DNA from: a virus
IMG/VR virus record: IMGVR_UViG_3300025547_000038
Coordinates: 1-22,978 of that record
DNA: 22,978 nt
Direction: 5' to 3' (one strand)
In this document: positions 8,707-22,978 of the stretch, one piece after another
How the letters are laid out: the number at the start of each line of letters is the position of its first letter
How positions within the stretch are numbered: the first letter of the stretch is position 1
Made by a program: the position numbers and the translations under genes
The notes under the pieces: generated by a model
Database searches by the model: none
What the model was told of the DNA's origin: nothing
Seen by the model: only the letters and a program-made list of their open reading frames with translations

Positions 8707-8979
8707 TTATTTATACAAGTCGTTATCCACCAAGTGTGTCTTGTTATAAAGTTCAATCACCTTATAAATAAACTCAGGTTGGTGGTGTCCGTGGTCAACA
8801 ATCATTGTTATCAAATCTAAGAAGGATTCCTTAGAGTAACCATATCTATCAACATAGTTACTAATCATGTTATCAACATCAACTACATAATCAACAACTA
8901 CCTCATCATCAAGATTAAAATCTTCTTCTAATCCAGTAATAATATCTTTAACCTTATTCAAACTTATAGACTTCTTCAT
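8707..8979 (-). CDS. Hypothetical acidic 90-residue protein
   Basis: A 90-residue frame from ATG 8977-8979 with a good ribosome site (AGGAGT six bases upstream). It begins with a short basic segment (MKKSISLNKVK) and then is strongly acidic (EEDFNLDDEVVVDYVVDVD, about residues 18-36), with a likely helical C-terminal half. There is no recognised domain. It is the first gene of the leftward set 8979-7687 and lies downstream of the direct-repeat element at 9022-9038 that resembles the leaders of the two cassettes at 9420-10347, so it may share their regulation. Confidence 0.65.
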   Translation of the reverse strand: MKKSISLNKVKDIITGLEEDFNLDDEVVVDYVVDVDNMISNYVDRYGYSKESFLDLITMIVDHGHHQPEFIYKVIELYNKTHLVDNDLYK

Positions 8980-9021
8980 AATATAACTCCTGTTGCGTTA
9001 AATAAAAATGAGTGAGTTTAT

Positions 9022-9038
9022 GTCAACGAAATGTCAAC
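9022..9038 (-). promoter_or_regulatory. Direct-repeat leader element, copy 1 (GTCAAC type)
   Basis: On the plus strand GTCAAC-GAAAT-GTCAAC, two identical hexamers one helical turn (11 bp) apart, 43 bases upstream of the ATG at 8979. The same layout with GCCGAC hexamers occurs before both cassette genes (9771-9787 and 10365-10381), and all three are preceded on the transcribed strand by CTTTTTGTT. On the minus strand the hexamers read as TTGACA, a -35 consensus, but no good -10 follows. A common activator or repressor site is the simplest reading. Confidence 0.5.
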
Positions 9039-9251
9039 ACTCATACAACAAAAAGCAAAAGCCGAAAATCCACAAACCACATAGGAGAGCCGGAGAAGGG
9101 CGTTGACAAAAAAGGAAGGCTAGGGTAGGGGGGAGGTGCTGCGCAGAGCGTGACGGAGAGGTTAGGGGCACTGGATGGGCAGGGCTGACTACTGTCACTG
9201 CCTATAAACACTTGTCTTATGTCTATTTTTAGTTGTCAATGGTGGTATGCA

Positions 9252-9314
9252 GCCCATGCCATTTCCATTGATAGCGCCCATGCCATTTCCATTGATAGCG
9301 CCCATGCCATTTCC
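9252..9314. repeat. 24-bp tandem repeat, 2.6 copies
   Basis: Two exact 24-base units (9252-9275 and 9276-9299) followed by a 15-base partial copy (9300-9314). The unit begins GCCCATGCCATTTCC. It interrupts what would otherwise be continuous similarity between the terminator-proximal regions of the two cassettes (AATGGTGGTA at 9238-9247 and 9833-9842), so it looks like an expansion within one copy. Confidence 0.85.
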
Positions 9315-9358
9315 CCCCCAACTCTTGCTTTTAGGCTTTGGCAGTTGTTTGAGAGCTT

Positions 9359-9423
9359 TTGGCAGTTGTTTGAAAAAAAATAACACTAACGGCTTTATCG
9401 TTAGTGTTATTTTCCTCGGTTAG
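9359..9423. repeat. Cassette downstream flank, copy A
   Basis: A 65-base segment nearly identical to 9847-9910 (one single-base insertion). It runs from TTGGCAGTTGTTTGA through the terminator up to and including the stop codon of the cassette 1 gene. The identity ends exactly where the coding sequence begins. Confidence 0.9.
9377..9413 (-). terminator. Strong intrinsic terminator of cassette 1
   Basis: A perfect 15-bp stem (AAAATAACACTAACG at 9377-9391 with its complement at 9399-9413) around a 7-base loop. On the minus strand it ends in a run of eight T. It lies just after the stop of the gene at 9420-9752 and is identical to the terminator at 9865-9901. Confidence 0.9.
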
Positions 9424-9752
9424 AACGGGTTAGCGACAGGTACTTGCTGGTCATCCCACTCATATATCATCGCGTAATTCAAATGCTTCTTATCCCTGCG
9501 ATTCAAATATACAAATGCGGTTATGCCTCTACCGAAAACTCTGTAGTTAGCATTACCGCGTCCGACATCGGTCGATCTTTCGGCATCGTACCACTCACCG
9601 CCGATTAGTATTTTGGGGCTAGTATGATCGAGTTTAATCCCATCATTTCTAAGTGCTAAACCGATAACCTCACCGTCGATTTTTACACCGCCGGTTAGGG
9701 CACCTTTACTAGTTTCTAGAACCATTTTTACACCATTGTTATCATTACTCAT
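9420..9752 (-). CDS. Cassette 1 cargo: hypothetical 110-residue protein
   Basis: A 110-residue protein starting at ATG 9750-9752, chosen because GGAG lies eight bases upstream and because the matching leader of cassette 2 uses the equivalent ATG; an in-frame upstream start at 9800 would translate the conserved leader. The N-terminus (MSNDNNGVKMV) is followed by alternating short strands (GGVKIDGEVIGLALR, KILIGGEWYD, ITAFVYLNRR), suggesting a small beta-rich, soluble fold. There is no signal peptide, membrane segment or known motif. It is a single-gene transcription unit with its own leader and terminator, the layout of phage moron genes, so an accessory role (for example countering host defence or changing host physiology) is possible but unproven. 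Confidence 0.75.
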   Translation of the reverse strand: MSNDNNGVKMVLETSKGALTGGVKIDGEVIGLALRNDGIKLDHTSPKILIGGEWYDAERSTDVGRGNANYRVFGRGITAFVYLNRRDKKHLNYAMIYEWDDQQVPVANPF

Positions 9753-9757
9753 GTTAC

Positions 9758-9805
9758 ATCTCCAGTTTGAGCCGACGAAATGCCGACTATCGCTTAACAA
9801 AAAGG
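9758..9805. repeat. Cassette upstream leader, copy A
   Basis: A 48-base segment matching 10352-10399 at 47 positions. It carries the ribosome site, the direct-repeat element (9771-9787) and the CTTTTTGTTAAGCG segment. The similarity stops at the start codon side and at about 9806, so it is a compact leader/promoter module. Confidence 0.9.
9771..9787 (-). promoter_or_regulatory. Direct-repeat leader element, copy 2 (GCCGAC type)
   Basis: Plus strand GCCGAC-GAAAT-GCCGAC, 18 bases upstream of the cassette 1 ATG. It has the same architecture as the element at 9022-9038, with two transitions in each hexamer. It has no sigma70 -35 character, so the shared feature is more likely a regulator site or an RNA leader element than a promoter box. 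Confidence 0.5.
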
Positions 9806-9816
9806 CTTTTATCTGT

Positions 9817-9842
9817 TACCACCAGCGCTGTTAATGGTGGTA
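9817..9842. other. Inverted repeat between the cassettes
   Basis: Perfect 8-bp arms TACCACCA (9817-9824) and TGGTGGTA (9835-9842) around 10 bases. It sits between the cassette 1 leader and the cassette 2 terminator. One arm, AATGGTGGTA, also occurs at 9238-9247, so it may mark the outer edge of the repeated module. Confidence 0.4.
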
Positions 9843-9846
9843 GCAG

Positions 9847-9910
9847 TTGGCAGTTGTTTGAAAAAAAATAACACTAACGGCTTTATCGTTAGTGTTATTT
9901 TCCCGGTTAG
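9847..9910. repeat. Cassette downstream flank, copy B
   Basis: The partner of 9359-9423. It spans TTGGCAGTTGTTTGA, the terminator and the stop codon of the cassette 2 gene. Confidence 0.9.
9865..9901 (-). terminator. Strong intrinsic terminator of cassette 2
   Basis: Same 15-bp stem, 7-base loop and eight-T run as at 9377-9413, placed directly after the stop of the gene at 9907-10347. It would keep cassette 2 transcription from entering cassette 1, so each cassette is an independent unit. Confidence 0.9.
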
Positions 9911-10347
9911 ATGCGCCGGCGTTTTAACCCTGACCGGTTTCGCATTTTACGGTCTCTTCGGGCACTATGGGGGGTCGAGATTCCTTGAGCGTATATCTCT
10001 TCTTGCTCTAATCGGGCGTTCTGCTTAAATCGTGCTATTCTTATAGCCTCGATAAGAGCGTCTTCTGCTCTAGCCTCTTCTCTGGCTTCACGCACCGCGA
10101 GTACTTCAGGGCGGACGCGCTCCACCCACTCTGCCTCTTCTCGCCCGTGCTCCCAGGCGTAGTACGCGTTGTGTTCCGCCATTTCGGCCTCTGCCGCACT
10201 GTTTATGGCCTCGACTATCCACGCGCCCAACGAGATCATAGCTGTTGGGAGGACGAGACTATAATCCTCCAACCAAACATCTTCAGCACCACAACCGCAG
10301 CCACATGAACTCTCAACCCTAAACTTTTTAGCTATTAATGTAATCAT
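9907..10347 (-). CDS. Cassette 2 cargo: hypothetical 146-residue protein
   Basis: A 146-residue protein from ATG 10345-10347, with GGAG seven bases upstream in the conserved leader; an in-frame ATG 12 bases earlier would fall inside the ribosome site. Near the N-terminus is a Cys cluster (SSCGCGCGAEDVW, about residues 13-25), followed by a hydrophobic stretch (about 32-52) and a long Glu/Arg/Ala-rich segment (about 52-120) likely to be a helix or coiled coil, and a very basic end (GLKRRRI). It has no similarity by eye to the cassette 1 protein, although both share leader and terminator. The coding sequence is visibly more GC-rich than its neighbours, which fits separate acquisition. The function is unknown. 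Confidence 0.7.
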   Translation of the reverse strand: MITLIAKKFRVESSCGCGCGAEDVWLEDYSLVLPTAMISLGAWIVEAINSAAEAEMAEHNAYYAWEHGREEAEWVERVRPEVLAVREAREEARAEDALIEAIRIARFKQNARLEQEEIYAQGISTPHSARRDRKMRNRSGLKRRRI

Positions 10348-10351
10348 TTGT

Positions 10352-10399
10352 ATCTCCAATTTGAGCCGACGAAATGCCGACTATCGCTTAACAAAAAGG
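10352..10399. repeat. Cassette upstream leader, copy B
   Basis: The partner of 9758-9805, with one mismatch in 48 bases. It includes the direct-repeat element at 10365-10381 and the ribosome site of the cassette 2 gene. Confidence 0.9.
10365..10381 (-). promoter_or_regulatory. Direct-repeat leader element, copy 3 (GCCGAC type)
   Basis: Plus strand GCCGAC-GAAAT-GCCGAC, identical to copy 2 and 17 bases upstream of the cassette 2 ATG. Confidence 0.5.
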
Positions 10400-10456
10400 T
10401 TGTTCGTTCAATGGGTCCCCTATTGGGCTGATGGAATCCGAATCGGGAGTCAAGAT

Positions 10457-10486
10457 TTGAAATCCGGATTGGCCCCCTCGTATAAT
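10457..10486 (+). promoter_or_regulatory. Sigma70-type promoter for the rightward virion genes
   Basis: TTGAAA at 10457-10462 (five of six to consensus), an 18-base spacer, and a perfect TATAAT at 10481-10486. Transcription would begin near 10493 and read through the phased repeat array into the small terminase gene at 10685, giving a leader of about 190 bases. An AGGAGGT at 10508-10514 in this leader has no start codon at a usable distance. Confidence 0.65.
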
Positions 10487-10535
10487 CGCGGTGGGGGAAG
10501 GGTAGACAGGAGGTTATAAACCGTAAAAAATAGCT

Positions 10536-10645
10536 AAATTTTTGATAATCAATAAAAATTTTTTGATAATCAATAAAAATTTTTTGATAATCAGTAAAAA
10601 ATTTTTGGCAAGCAATAAAAAATTTTTTGGCAAGTAATAAAAAAA
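10536..10645. repeat. Phased 21-bp AT-rich repeat array (five units)
   Basis: Five degenerate units, with TTG anchors at 10542, 10563, 10584, 10605 and 10627, giving spacings of 21, 21, 21 and 22 bases. The first two units carry the near-palindrome TTGATAATCAA, the third TTGATAATCAG and the last two TTGGCAAGCAA or TTGGCAAGTAA. They are separated by runs such as AAAAATTTTTT. A 21-base period is two helical turns, so the A/T tracts are in phase and the DNA should be intrinsically curved. The array lies between the promoter at 10457 and the first virion gene, as expected for a regulator-binding or origin iteron array. Confidence 0.85.
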
Positions 10646-10670
10646 TAAAAAAATAAAAAATAATTTTTAT

Positions 10671-10678
10671 GGTATATT
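10671..10678 (+). promoter_or_regulatory. Possible -10 box just before the small terminase gene
   Basis: TATATT at 10673-10678 preceded by TGG forms an extended -10-like site only seven bases before the ATG at 10685. Transcription from it would give a leaderless or nearly leaderless message, which would fit the absence of a ribosome site there. There is no clear -35 in the surrounding A/T-rich DNA, so it may be chance. Confidence 0.3.
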
Positions 10679-10684
10679 AGCACT

Positions 10685-11113
10685 ATGGAATCCATGAACG
10701 CAGATCAATATTTACATAATTTACCAAAACTTGACCGGCAGCAACAAGCGTTTGTACATAGTTACGCTAATTTACATAACGTTGGCGCTGCGGCTAACGC
10801 TGCGGGGATAACACGCGCAACGGCGTTACGGTGGATGAAGACAGATGCTGTAGCGGGTAACTTAGATTTCTATGAGAACGAGGCGTTAATAGAACATAAG
10901 GTGTCGAGAGATAAGTTAACGGCGATGCTGTTCGAGGCGCATCGTAAGTCGGCAACTTCAACTGAAGAGGTAGCCGCTATCCGTGAGCTAGGTAAGATGC
11001 ACGGTGTGTACGAACCCGAGAAGACAGTGACAGTATCAGCTAACTATACTAAAATAGAGCAGATGGAAGAACTGTCGGATGATGAGTTAATAGCTATTAT
11101 TAATGGAGCGTAG
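10685..11113 (+). CDS. terS: Terminase small subunit
   Basis: A 142-residue protein directly before the large terminase. The N-terminal half contains a helix-turn-helix-like region (LDRQQQAFVHSYANLHNVGAAANAAGI, then TRATALRWMK, about 16-52) expected to bind the packaging site, and the C-terminal part is acidic (EQMEELSDDELIAIING). Small terminases of this kind recognise phage DNA and regulate the motor ATPase. There is no ribosome site before the ATG at 10685; a second in-frame ATG at 10694 is little better, so initiation may be leaderless or depend on the long leader. Assignment rests on position, size and the HTH pattern. Confidence 0.75.
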   Translation: MESMNADQYLHNLPKLDRQQQAFVHSYANLHNVGAAANAAGITRATALRWMKTDAVAGNLDFYENEALIEHKVSRDKLTAMLFEAHRKSATSTEEVAAIRELGKMHGVYEPEKTVTVSANYTKIEQMEELSDDELIAIINGA

Positions 11114-12772: not shown

Positions 12773-13501
12773 ATGGCGTTTTTAGCAATGATAAGAGATG
12801 AACCCTACGTGTTCGACAATAGAGAACAGTTTAAAGTTTTTGCACGTTCTTCAGGGATGCACCCAACAGCAATAAACCGGGTTCAGTTACAAGAGATGCC
12901 GCGCGGGGAGGCGGATGCGATAGTTGGGGACTTTGAGGCTAGTAAATACCCGTCGTCTTTAGGGGTTACACCACCTAATGCGTGGGAGACACCCCCTCCT
13001 CCACAGCAGCAGGAGGATTTAACATTTTTCGATGCTGTTACCGGTAATAGACCGTTAGATTATGTACGAAACCCTAATGAGTTTAATTTAAAAGACGAGG
13101 TAGCACTAGCTGAACAACAACGTGTTCAAGCAGAAAATGCTGACCGTCTATCTAAAAAATACTGGCCTAAGTTTAACGGAGAGTCGTACCCGAACTATTC
13201 AGCGGCTCAGGCTGCCCGAACTAGGGCACAGGATCAGTTATCAGCCGATGCAGAACAGGAAATTATAGATCGAGAGGTGCGTGGAGGCGGGTTAGGTACA
13301 ATGCCGCAAAATATTGCACCGGCACCTCCTGCACCGATAGCACCAGCACAGAATACTCGCCCACCTGTAGTAGAGATGGGGCAACCAGCTGATCCGACTA
13401 TTGCCCGTGATAGTAGCGGGCAGTATATACGTACAGGTAGCGGCGGGTTCCTAAGGACTACAGATTATGACAACCCTGTTAAGGAAGCTTGGGAATTCTA
13501 A
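12773..13501 (+). CDS. Hypothetical virion-module protein between terminase and portal
   Basis: A 242-residue protein with a clear ribosome site (AGGAG seven to eight bases before the ATG). Residues about 1-55 look globular; Pro/Gln-rich linkers follow (ETPPPPQQQ, about 72-80; PAPPAPIAPAQ, about 184-194), with a charged, probably helical region at about 105-170 and a Gly/Ser-rich end (IRTGSGGFLRTTDY). It could be a minor structural or ejected protein, judging by place and low-complexity linkers, but no family is recognised. Its stop lies two bases before the portal ATG, so both are co-translated. Confidence 0.7.
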   Translation: MAFLAMIRDEPYVFDNREQFKVFARSSGMHPTAINRVQLQEMPRGEADAIVGDFEASKYPSSLGVTPPNAWETPPPPQQQEDLTFFDAVTGNRPLDYVRNPNEFNLKDEVALAEQQRVQAENADRLSKKYWPKFNGESYPNYSAAQAARTRAQDQLSADAEQEIIDREVRGGGLGTMPQNIAPAPPAPIAPAQNTRPPVVEMGQPADPTIARDSSGQYIRTGSGGFLRTTDYDNPVKEAWEF

Positions 13502-21592: not shown

Positions 21593-22978
21593 TGTCAGAG
21601 ACTAAGATACCAGCTATCCCAGAACCACCACAGGGAGCTTTGTATGGGTTCCTATCAGCCGTAAAGAATGCAGTTGAAGTAAGGCTAGGGTTAAGAGGAG
21701 ATAAGCTTGACAGAGCTGTAACGCTTAGAGAGCTGTTTAGTTCTGGGGTTATTACAGGTATTAGTGGTGGTATTAGTGCTCCAGTATCTAGTGGGTCAGC
21801 TTGGGGGTATACTTTAGCAGTTCCTCCAGTTGACCTAACACCCCCTCCAGCACCGACTTCATTAACTACTGGAGCTACATGGAGCCAGATATTCCTTGAG
21901 TGGGATTGGGGTACATACTCTAACCACGATGTTACTGAGATATGGAGAAGACAGGTAGGCACTGATCCAGCAGTTAATTACGGTACATGCTCTTTTGATG
22001 GAGAAGCTTATTCAGACGGATGCCAGATGGTAGCTTCTCCATCGGGTAAGGTATGGCAGGATAATGTTGGAGATATCGTTAATGCTACAGGTGATGGGCA
22101 GGAGTATTACTACTGGGTTAGGTTAAAATCAACTGCTGGAATTACAGGAGACCCCTACCCATCTGCAGCAGCAGGTATTTTAGGTACACTTACAAAAGAT
22201 CCAGCTCATGCACTAGCTTTACTTACAGAGTCTATAACGTCATCAGAGTTATCGACTAACCTAATCTCTAATATTACAACAACGATGTATACTACGAGTA
22301 CGAGTGGGGTTAAACCTACCACTAAGCCAGATGGCTCCTCTCTGGTGGTAGGTGATCTCGTAGTTGATGCAGCTAATAATTTTATAATATACCGTTATGC
22401 TGGATTAGATGGCAGCACTCCACCTGTACCTATATGGGTATCTATTAGGGATAGCGGTATAGCTCAGGCACTTGGTCTGGCAGGAGATGCACAATCTACA
22501 GCAGATGGTAGTATTCAAGGGTTTTTTCAGGATGCTATACCTAGTACCGCACAGTCGTCTTTTGGGGATATATGGATAGATACTGATAATTCAGCTGTAT
22601 TAGATAGTAGTGCTATATTTAGGTATGAAAACCAAGATGGCGGAGCATTAGTAGATGCTACCGGAGACACCTCTTGTAATAGCGGAACATCAGCATGTGT
22701 TCTATCTTGGCAAGGTGCGAGTAGTAGTGCTATCGGCGGGGTGTATCTAAAAGCGTACCAAGCAGAAACAGACGCGGGTGTAGCACAAGCTACAGCAGAT
22801 GGCATTATTCAAGGGTTTTTTCAGGATGCTGAACCTAGTATAGCTCAATCCTCTTTTGGGGATATATGGATAGATACTGATAATTCAGCTGTATTAGATA
22901 GTAGTGCTATATTTAGGTATGAAAACCAAGATGGCGGAGCATTAGTAGATGCTACCGGAGACACCTCTTGTAATAGCG
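21592..22978 (+). CDS. Tail fibre/tip protein with tandem 98-residue domains (partial)
   Basis: A frame of 462 codons, open to the right edge, starting at ATG 21592 that overlaps the previous stop (TAATG). The N-terminal part (about 1-75) may anchor to the tail; residues about 80-200 look like a fibronectin type III-like domain (LTPPPAPTSLTTGATWSQIFLEWDW, then EYYYWVRLKSTAG). The C-terminal part has the ADGxIQGFFQD...SFGDIWIDTD signature known from host-specificity tail proteins (gpJ-like), repeated with a period of 98 residues. Each repeat has a Cys pair (SCNSGTSAC). The second repeat is cut by the window end. The likely role is receptor binding. Confidence 0.8.
   Translation, partial: MSETKIPAIPEPPQGALYGFLSAVKNAVEVRLGLRGDKLDRAVTLRELFSSGVITGISGGISAPVSSGSAWGYTLAVPPVDLTPPPAPTSLTTGATWSQIFLEWDWGTYSNHDVTEIWRRQVGTDPAVNYGTCSFDGEAYSDGCQMVASPSGKVWQDNVGDIVNATGDGQEYYYWVRLKSTAGITGDPYPSAAAGILGTLTKDPAHALALLTESITSSELSTNLISNITTTMYTTSTSGVKPTTKPDGSSLVVGDLVVDAANNFIIYRYAGLDGSTPPVPIWVSIRDSGIAQALGLAGDAQSTADGSIQGFFQDAIPSTAQSSFGDIWIDTDNSAVLDSSAIFRYENQDGGALVDATGDTSCNSGTSACVLSWQGASSSAIGGVYLKAYQAETDAGVAQATADGIIQGFFQDAEPSIAQSSFGDIWIDTDNSAVLDSSAIFRYENQDGGALVDATGDTSCNS
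22501..22978 (+). repeat. 294-bp tandem repeat in the tail fibre gene
   Basis: The unit beginning GCAGATGG at 22501 starts again at 22795. The segment 22558-22684 (127 bases) is identical to 22852-22978, the right edge, while the 57 bases before it differ at several positions. The period is 294 bases, 98 codons. Near-identity at the DNA level implies recent duplication or gene conversion; more copies may lie beyond the window. Confidence 0.95.

Follow-up and report, generated by a model that had tools for sequence, protein, structure and literature searches.

A probable accessory-gene cassette site, resembling the PeSLs of T4-type phages, beside the control region of a KPP25-like podovirus

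The first two genes of the leftward arm of a KPP25-like podovirus (c2, then c1) encode unrelated proteins and lie between near-identical flanks in the order L-c2-T-L-c1-T (leader, gene, terminator-like end flank). With a probability of roughly 0.6, the region is an accessory cassette site beside the phage control region that resembles the PeSLs (promoter-early stem-loops) of T4-type phages, promoter-plus-stem-loop motifs described as mediating gene shuffling (Arbiol 2010; Comeau 2014; both as cited in PMC4503421). Near-identical flanks around unrelated cargo require copying or recombination at gene boundaries, because after a gene duplication the non-coding flanks would have diverged before the genes. 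On the best reading, such a cassette region is new in the KPP25-like lineage and the cassette principle is already known: the first-pass annotation regarded a standardized flank for different cargo as a more organized system than phage morons, and the promoter-terminator modules of T4-type phages cited in PMC4503421 are already of this kind.

The window, the whole stretch of DNA analyzed (22,978 bases), is a fragment from an uncultured podovirus that is probably marine and whose relatives include Pseudomonas phage KPP25/phiR18 and Aeromonas phage phiA008. The major capsid protein (MCP) and the primase-helicase are 55% and 27% identical to those of KPP25/phiR18, and TerL has its best match in phiA008 (44%). 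Two arms diverge from a control region at approximately 10405-10684, the leftward arm carrying the replication genes and the rightward arm the structural genes; the small terminase gene starts at 10685. The features of the region are, from right to left:

10405 to 10684, no strand: divergent control region, gene-free, between the leftward and the structural arm
10352 to 10399, minus strand: leader L2, upstream of c2, with the pattern GTCGGC-ATTTC-GTCGGC, ending at the ribosome site, 47/48 identical to L1
9907 to 10347, minus strand: c2, 146 aa, orphan, predicted long coiled coil, 52% G+C
9847 to 9911, minus strand: end flank T2, after c2, a stem-loop (about 18 pairs) with a T run behind it, resembling an intrinsic terminator
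9806 to 9846, minus strand: spacer between T2 and L1, not repeated elsewhere and outside both repeat families
9758 to 9805, minus strand: leader L1, upstream of c1, 48 nt
9420 to 9752, minus strand: c1, 110 aa, orphan, low-confidence all-beta model
9359 to 9424, minus strand: end flank T1, after c1, a terminator-like stem-loop
9338 to 9352, minus strand: third copy of the flank tail, TTGGCAGTTGTTTGA on the plus strand, 21 nt from the copy at 9359
9015 to 9055, minus strand: diverged third leader, GTTGAC-ATTTC-GTTGAC, upstream of the left-arm operon whose first gene is at 8707-8979

The two leaders were recovered both by a repeat search (direct repeats 9758-9810/10352-10404, 94%) and by self-BLAST (9758-9805 versus 10352-10399, 48 nt, 97.9%, E 2e-17), as were the two end flanks (9354-9415/9842-9903, 97%; 9359-9424 versus 9847-9911, 66 columns, 98.5%, one gap, E 8e-27), which are 65-66 nt long and identical save for one inserted base, with 64-65 matches in 66 columns. 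The repeats are thus as first described, and so are their limits at the coding boundaries: the leader match stops at the ribosome site (GGAGAT, a few nt ahead of each ATG) and the end-flank match starts at the stop codon (CTAACCG). The predicted fold of T2 has a minimum free energy of -19.3 kcal/mol (z -5.0; z -6.1 on a 60-nt piece) and that of T1 of -20.7 kcal/mol (z -6.9). The end flank has no match in Rfam and, as judged by folding, makes a convincing intrinsic terminator; the third tail at 9338-9352 is a possible remnant of a further flank. The view that each gene forms a self-contained transcription unit is supported on the side of the terminator and not on that of the promoter, since a simple consensus scan made with the host not identified gave no sigma70-like site at or close to the leaders on the leftward strand.

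The description of the cargo as unrelated is confirmed. The c1 and c2 proteins give no BLASTP alignment at E<=100, and the structures predicted from a shallow or no alignment are all-beta at low confidence for c1 (pLDDT 48) and an all-alpha coiled coil with a long helix for c2 (core pLDDT >90). The two genes are not copies of one another, and the diverged copies of one ancestor that had been named as the opposing case are not seen in these models. No family was found for c1 in Pfam, PHROGs, NCBIfam or PADLOC, and no homologs of c1 or c2 in phage records or viral contigs beyond two other strains of the phage. A match of c2 to JetD was rejected as marginal and coiled-coil-like only (E 0.002, below any useful level). 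The G+C content is 52% in c2, 43% in c1 and 42-45% in the arms.

To see where else the flanks occur, 2.9 million viral contigs were searched for exact matches to a 22-nt part of the leader, a 27-nt part of the terminator, and the terminator stem with the loop left free. Matches were found only in IMGVR 3300025592_000085 and 3300025614_000422, and both contigs are strains of the window phage that carry the c2/c1 pair in unchanged order. Both flank copies, with their single differences, are unchanged in these strains, which were assembled from other metagenomes, and the repeated flanks are therefore not an assembly error; because the single differences are the same in all three strains, the flank duplication predates the strains and the copies are not being homogenized. 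The test for other cargo between the window flanks, proposed in the first-pass annotation, is negative in this set, in which a single fixed pair is known from three strains and no other cargo lies between the flanks in any of the 2.9 million viral contigs. The leader also has no match in bacterial and archaeal genomes.

Across the three strains, no gene was seen to be gained, lost or replaced through breakpoints within the modules. The c1 alleles differ among strains by the replacement of one central block with a diverged allele carrying a 21-nt indel (compared with L006:8300-8608), in genomes that are otherwise 99.7% identical. This shows recombination at the locus, inside c1 rather than in the flanks, and is the one trace of it between the strains. 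A second variable locus is the gene between the terminase and the portal, which encodes 242 aa in the window (12773-13501) and 458 aa in strain L009 (L009:2298-3674); the variants share their ends only, and this strain is otherwise >99% identical. The end of the contig of the same strain (L009:1-168, window 10412-10579) lies 8 bases away from where the repeated leader L2 region ends, which would be expected had the assembly broken at a repeated flank or at variable cargo.

A total of about 155 loci were taken from viral contigs by protein alignments of the major capsid protein and the large terminase, and 58 distinct KPP25-like phages with at least 1.8 kb upstream of the terminase were kept (window and phiR18 included). 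Within each phage, all same-strand gene pairs were compared over 70 nt in four places: ahead of the ribosome site, behind the stop codon and at each of the two coding edges. Common leaders were found in 11 out of 2667 left-arm gene pairs and in 0 out of 2335 right-arm pairs, and common end flanks in 6 out of 2409 left-arm and 0 out of 1977 right-arm pairs, counts that are indicative, the gene calls being simple and our own and the phages not independent. Shuffled sequences gave 0 common leaders or end flanks. Coding-edge matches were restricted to true paralogs in one relative (L099), and one of the 11 leader matches comes from these paralogs too. Overall, 11 of the 58 phages carry a leader or an end flank common to unrelated neighboring genes, all within the leftward arm and none within the structural arm, a distribution that fits the accessory-gene hotspot proposed for this location.

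The whole terminator-plus-leader module is repeated between unrelated small genes in four relatives (L162, L170, L028, and L103). L130 has a repeated intergenic module without a hairpin, and the common flank of L130 and that of L054 lack a clear stem-loop. A module common to different phages was not found among the set, each flank being private to its phage; only 231 out of the 453 left-arm genes have homologs in other phages of this set. The module of L103 is present in three copies, one of which runs over the last codons and the stop of a gene for an AlkB-like 2OG-Fe(II) oxygenase (Pfam PF13532, E 2e-16). The AlkB-like gene of L167 is 87% identical in DNA to that of L103 from the start codon on and has a different end and unrelated flanks. 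For another L103 cargo, 105 nt are 95% identical to part of an L114 gene that has different flanks. These comparisons show that, in the relatives, regulatory modules are copied within a genome to the boundaries of genes, and that a given cargo is not bound to one flank. The proposed exchange of cargo via the flanks accordingly gains from the relatives, in which cargo/flank combinations differ, and not from the three strains of the window phage, in which no swap was seen. Exchange between phages through the flanks lacks any documented case in the set, where modules are never common to two phages, and this stands against the cassette reading, as do the single fixed pair, the lack of a match in the promoter scan, the recombination trace inside c1 and the leader copy before the core left operon.

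Several other repeats were observed. An array of AT-rich 21-bp tandem repeats (AATTTTTTGATAATCAATAAA) at 10536-10640, upstream of the small terminase gene, varies among strains; a perfect 24-bp tandem repeat (GCCCATGCCATTTCCATTGATAGC) lies at 9252-9299, between c1 and the left operon; and the last, cut-off structural ORF (window 22480-22978) contains a repeat at least 205 nt long (93%), with 294 nt apart. Upstream of the first leftward gene, 32 out of 53 related phages have the 10-mers TGGAACCTTG and GGAACCTTGT, a candidate family-wide control site; the window has GGGGACCCATTG at the matching position (approximately 10412-10425). The control region of phiR18 contains other repeats without shared gene flanks, and the pieces of the phiA008 control region that were searched contain no repeats. 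Clusters of TGACACAG/TTGACACAG-type direct repeats are present in leftward intergenic DNA at L054:2440-2760, L066:1590-1860 and L157:4200-4620, some with inverted copies around AT-rich DNA, resembling origin-like iterons or operators.

The diverged third leader matches at 29 out of 41 ungapped positions (score 17 versus <=15.5 in 40 shuffled windows), and its half-boxes are GTTGAC, not GTCGGC, with the same 11 bp spacing around the same ATTTC. Because this copy precedes the left-arm operon, the leader is not cassette-specific, a diverged form being used by the core left-arm operon too, which suggests a regulator site or an RNA hairpin common to the three leftward units. The same copy favors the possibility, which we consider real but doubtful, that the flanks are plain repeated early control sites kept alike by function or by gene conversion, with no role in exchange, and that ordinary illegitimate recombination brought in the cargo. 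Phages commonly have repeated early control sites, for example the SAS/ESAS of the cluster K mycobacteriophages (PMC3203893), and the privacy of the flanks to each phage and the fixed c1/c2 pair in the known strains agree with this possibility. However, function needs no identity of the loop, of the 14-nt tail past the terminator or of the whole 48-nt leader, and identity beyond the functional need therefore points to recent block copying. In addition, the persistence of the same single differences in all three strains speaks against homogenizing conversion, and the L103 module has taken the place of a gene end.

That the leader acts mainly as an RNA element is improbable. On this account a hairpin of GUCGGC/GUCGGC (GUUGAC/GUUGAC in the third copy) upstream of the ribosome site would affect translation or mRNA stability, and a stem of 6-7 bp with an AUUUC loop can indeed be folded in all three leader copies, and several relatives have hairpins at the like place. 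However, the z-scores in the window are weak (-0.5 to -1.4), the leftward leaders are no more structured than the rightward ones across the family (mean z -0.97 versus -0.95), and an 11-bp direct repeat bound by a protein would explain the same sequence. Inspection of L097, L098, L060, and L066 had at first suggested a 5'-UTR hairpin conserved across the family, but a systematic test gave no excess over rightward genes, and the hairpin stays a weak rival.

Tandem duplication of a single gene and its flanks, with fast divergence of one coding copy afterwards, has a precedent at a like place in L099 (two copies of a two-gene unit), but is effectively refuted by the absence of protein similarity between c1 and c2 with their all-beta and all-alpha models, by the fact that coding DNA cannot lose all similarity beside non-coding DNA that is still 97-98% identical, and by the similar coding edges that the real paralogs of L099 retain. 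The duplicated unit of L099 (L099:790-3119, diverged paralogs) occupies the place where the window has c1/c2.

Under the cassette reading, small early genes of no known function would be carried as leader-gene-terminator units. The repeated T-L module would supply each gene with its own transcription stop and its own translation leader, and a regulated start for each gene probably lies in or just upstream of L, so that c1 and c2 may be transcribed separately. The homology of the T-L modules would at the same time offer a route for gene addition or loss: a single crossover between a resident L-c2-T and incoming or circular T-L-c1 DNA would yield L-c2-T-L-c1-T, making recombination in the flanks the presumed route of acquisition.

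Morons are accessory genes with their own promoter and terminator. The window genes resemble them in being small and extra with a terminator of their own, and one (c2, though not c1 at 43%) has an atypical G+C content; they differ in that two tandem units have the same flanks and that the scan found no promoter belonging to them. The likeness to the PeSLs, as cited in PMC4503421, lies in short intergenic repeats that carry a stem-loop terminator and separate small unrelated early genes, the stem-loop terminator being present in both copies of the window module, and in a plastic, orphan-rich region, c1 and c2 having no homologs outside the strain group. The window differs in belonging to a relative of the KPP25-like podoviruses and not to a T4-type myovirus, in a leader without a recognized sigma70-like early promoter (simple consensus, host not identified), and in having two units only and no swap between strains. 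The window is not classed as a PeSL because no promoter was found, no flank swap was seen and the phage is not T4-type. In the haloarchaeal virus HGTV-1, many ORFs of one genome arm are preceded by a conserved motif that contains an inverted repeat and has been likened to PeSLs, but that virus is archaeal and the motif has a TATA-like element and many copies (PMC3950731). The SAS/ESAS repeats lie directly upstream of the starts of unrelated genes with a consensus that varies by subcluster; they resemble the leader half of the window module and not the terminator half, having no repeated terminator flank after the gene (PMC3203893). They are also conserved with the same gene families across phages, whereas the window leader occurs only in its own strains.

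It is tentatively suggested, as a speculative extension, that lineage-private terminator-plus-leader modules in KPP25-like phages copy themselves to early-arm gene boundaries independently of the cargo, even over the 3' end of a gene as in L103, and continually make acquired genes into standard transcription units. The window leader would then bind a phage-specific regulator at its paired GTCGGC/GTTGAC boxes, 11 bp apart, and so place both accessory genes and the left operon under one control. The cassette reading would carry the idea of promoter-terminator cassettes beyond T4-type phages to environmental podoviruses, a widespread group, and the comparison, controlled across the family, shows that flank sharing is limited to the early arm, with a module of its own in each lineage. 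A common flank around unrelated cargo would also provide a sequence handle for accessory genes in uncultured phages, and the genes found in this way may include functions in host takeover or counter-defence.
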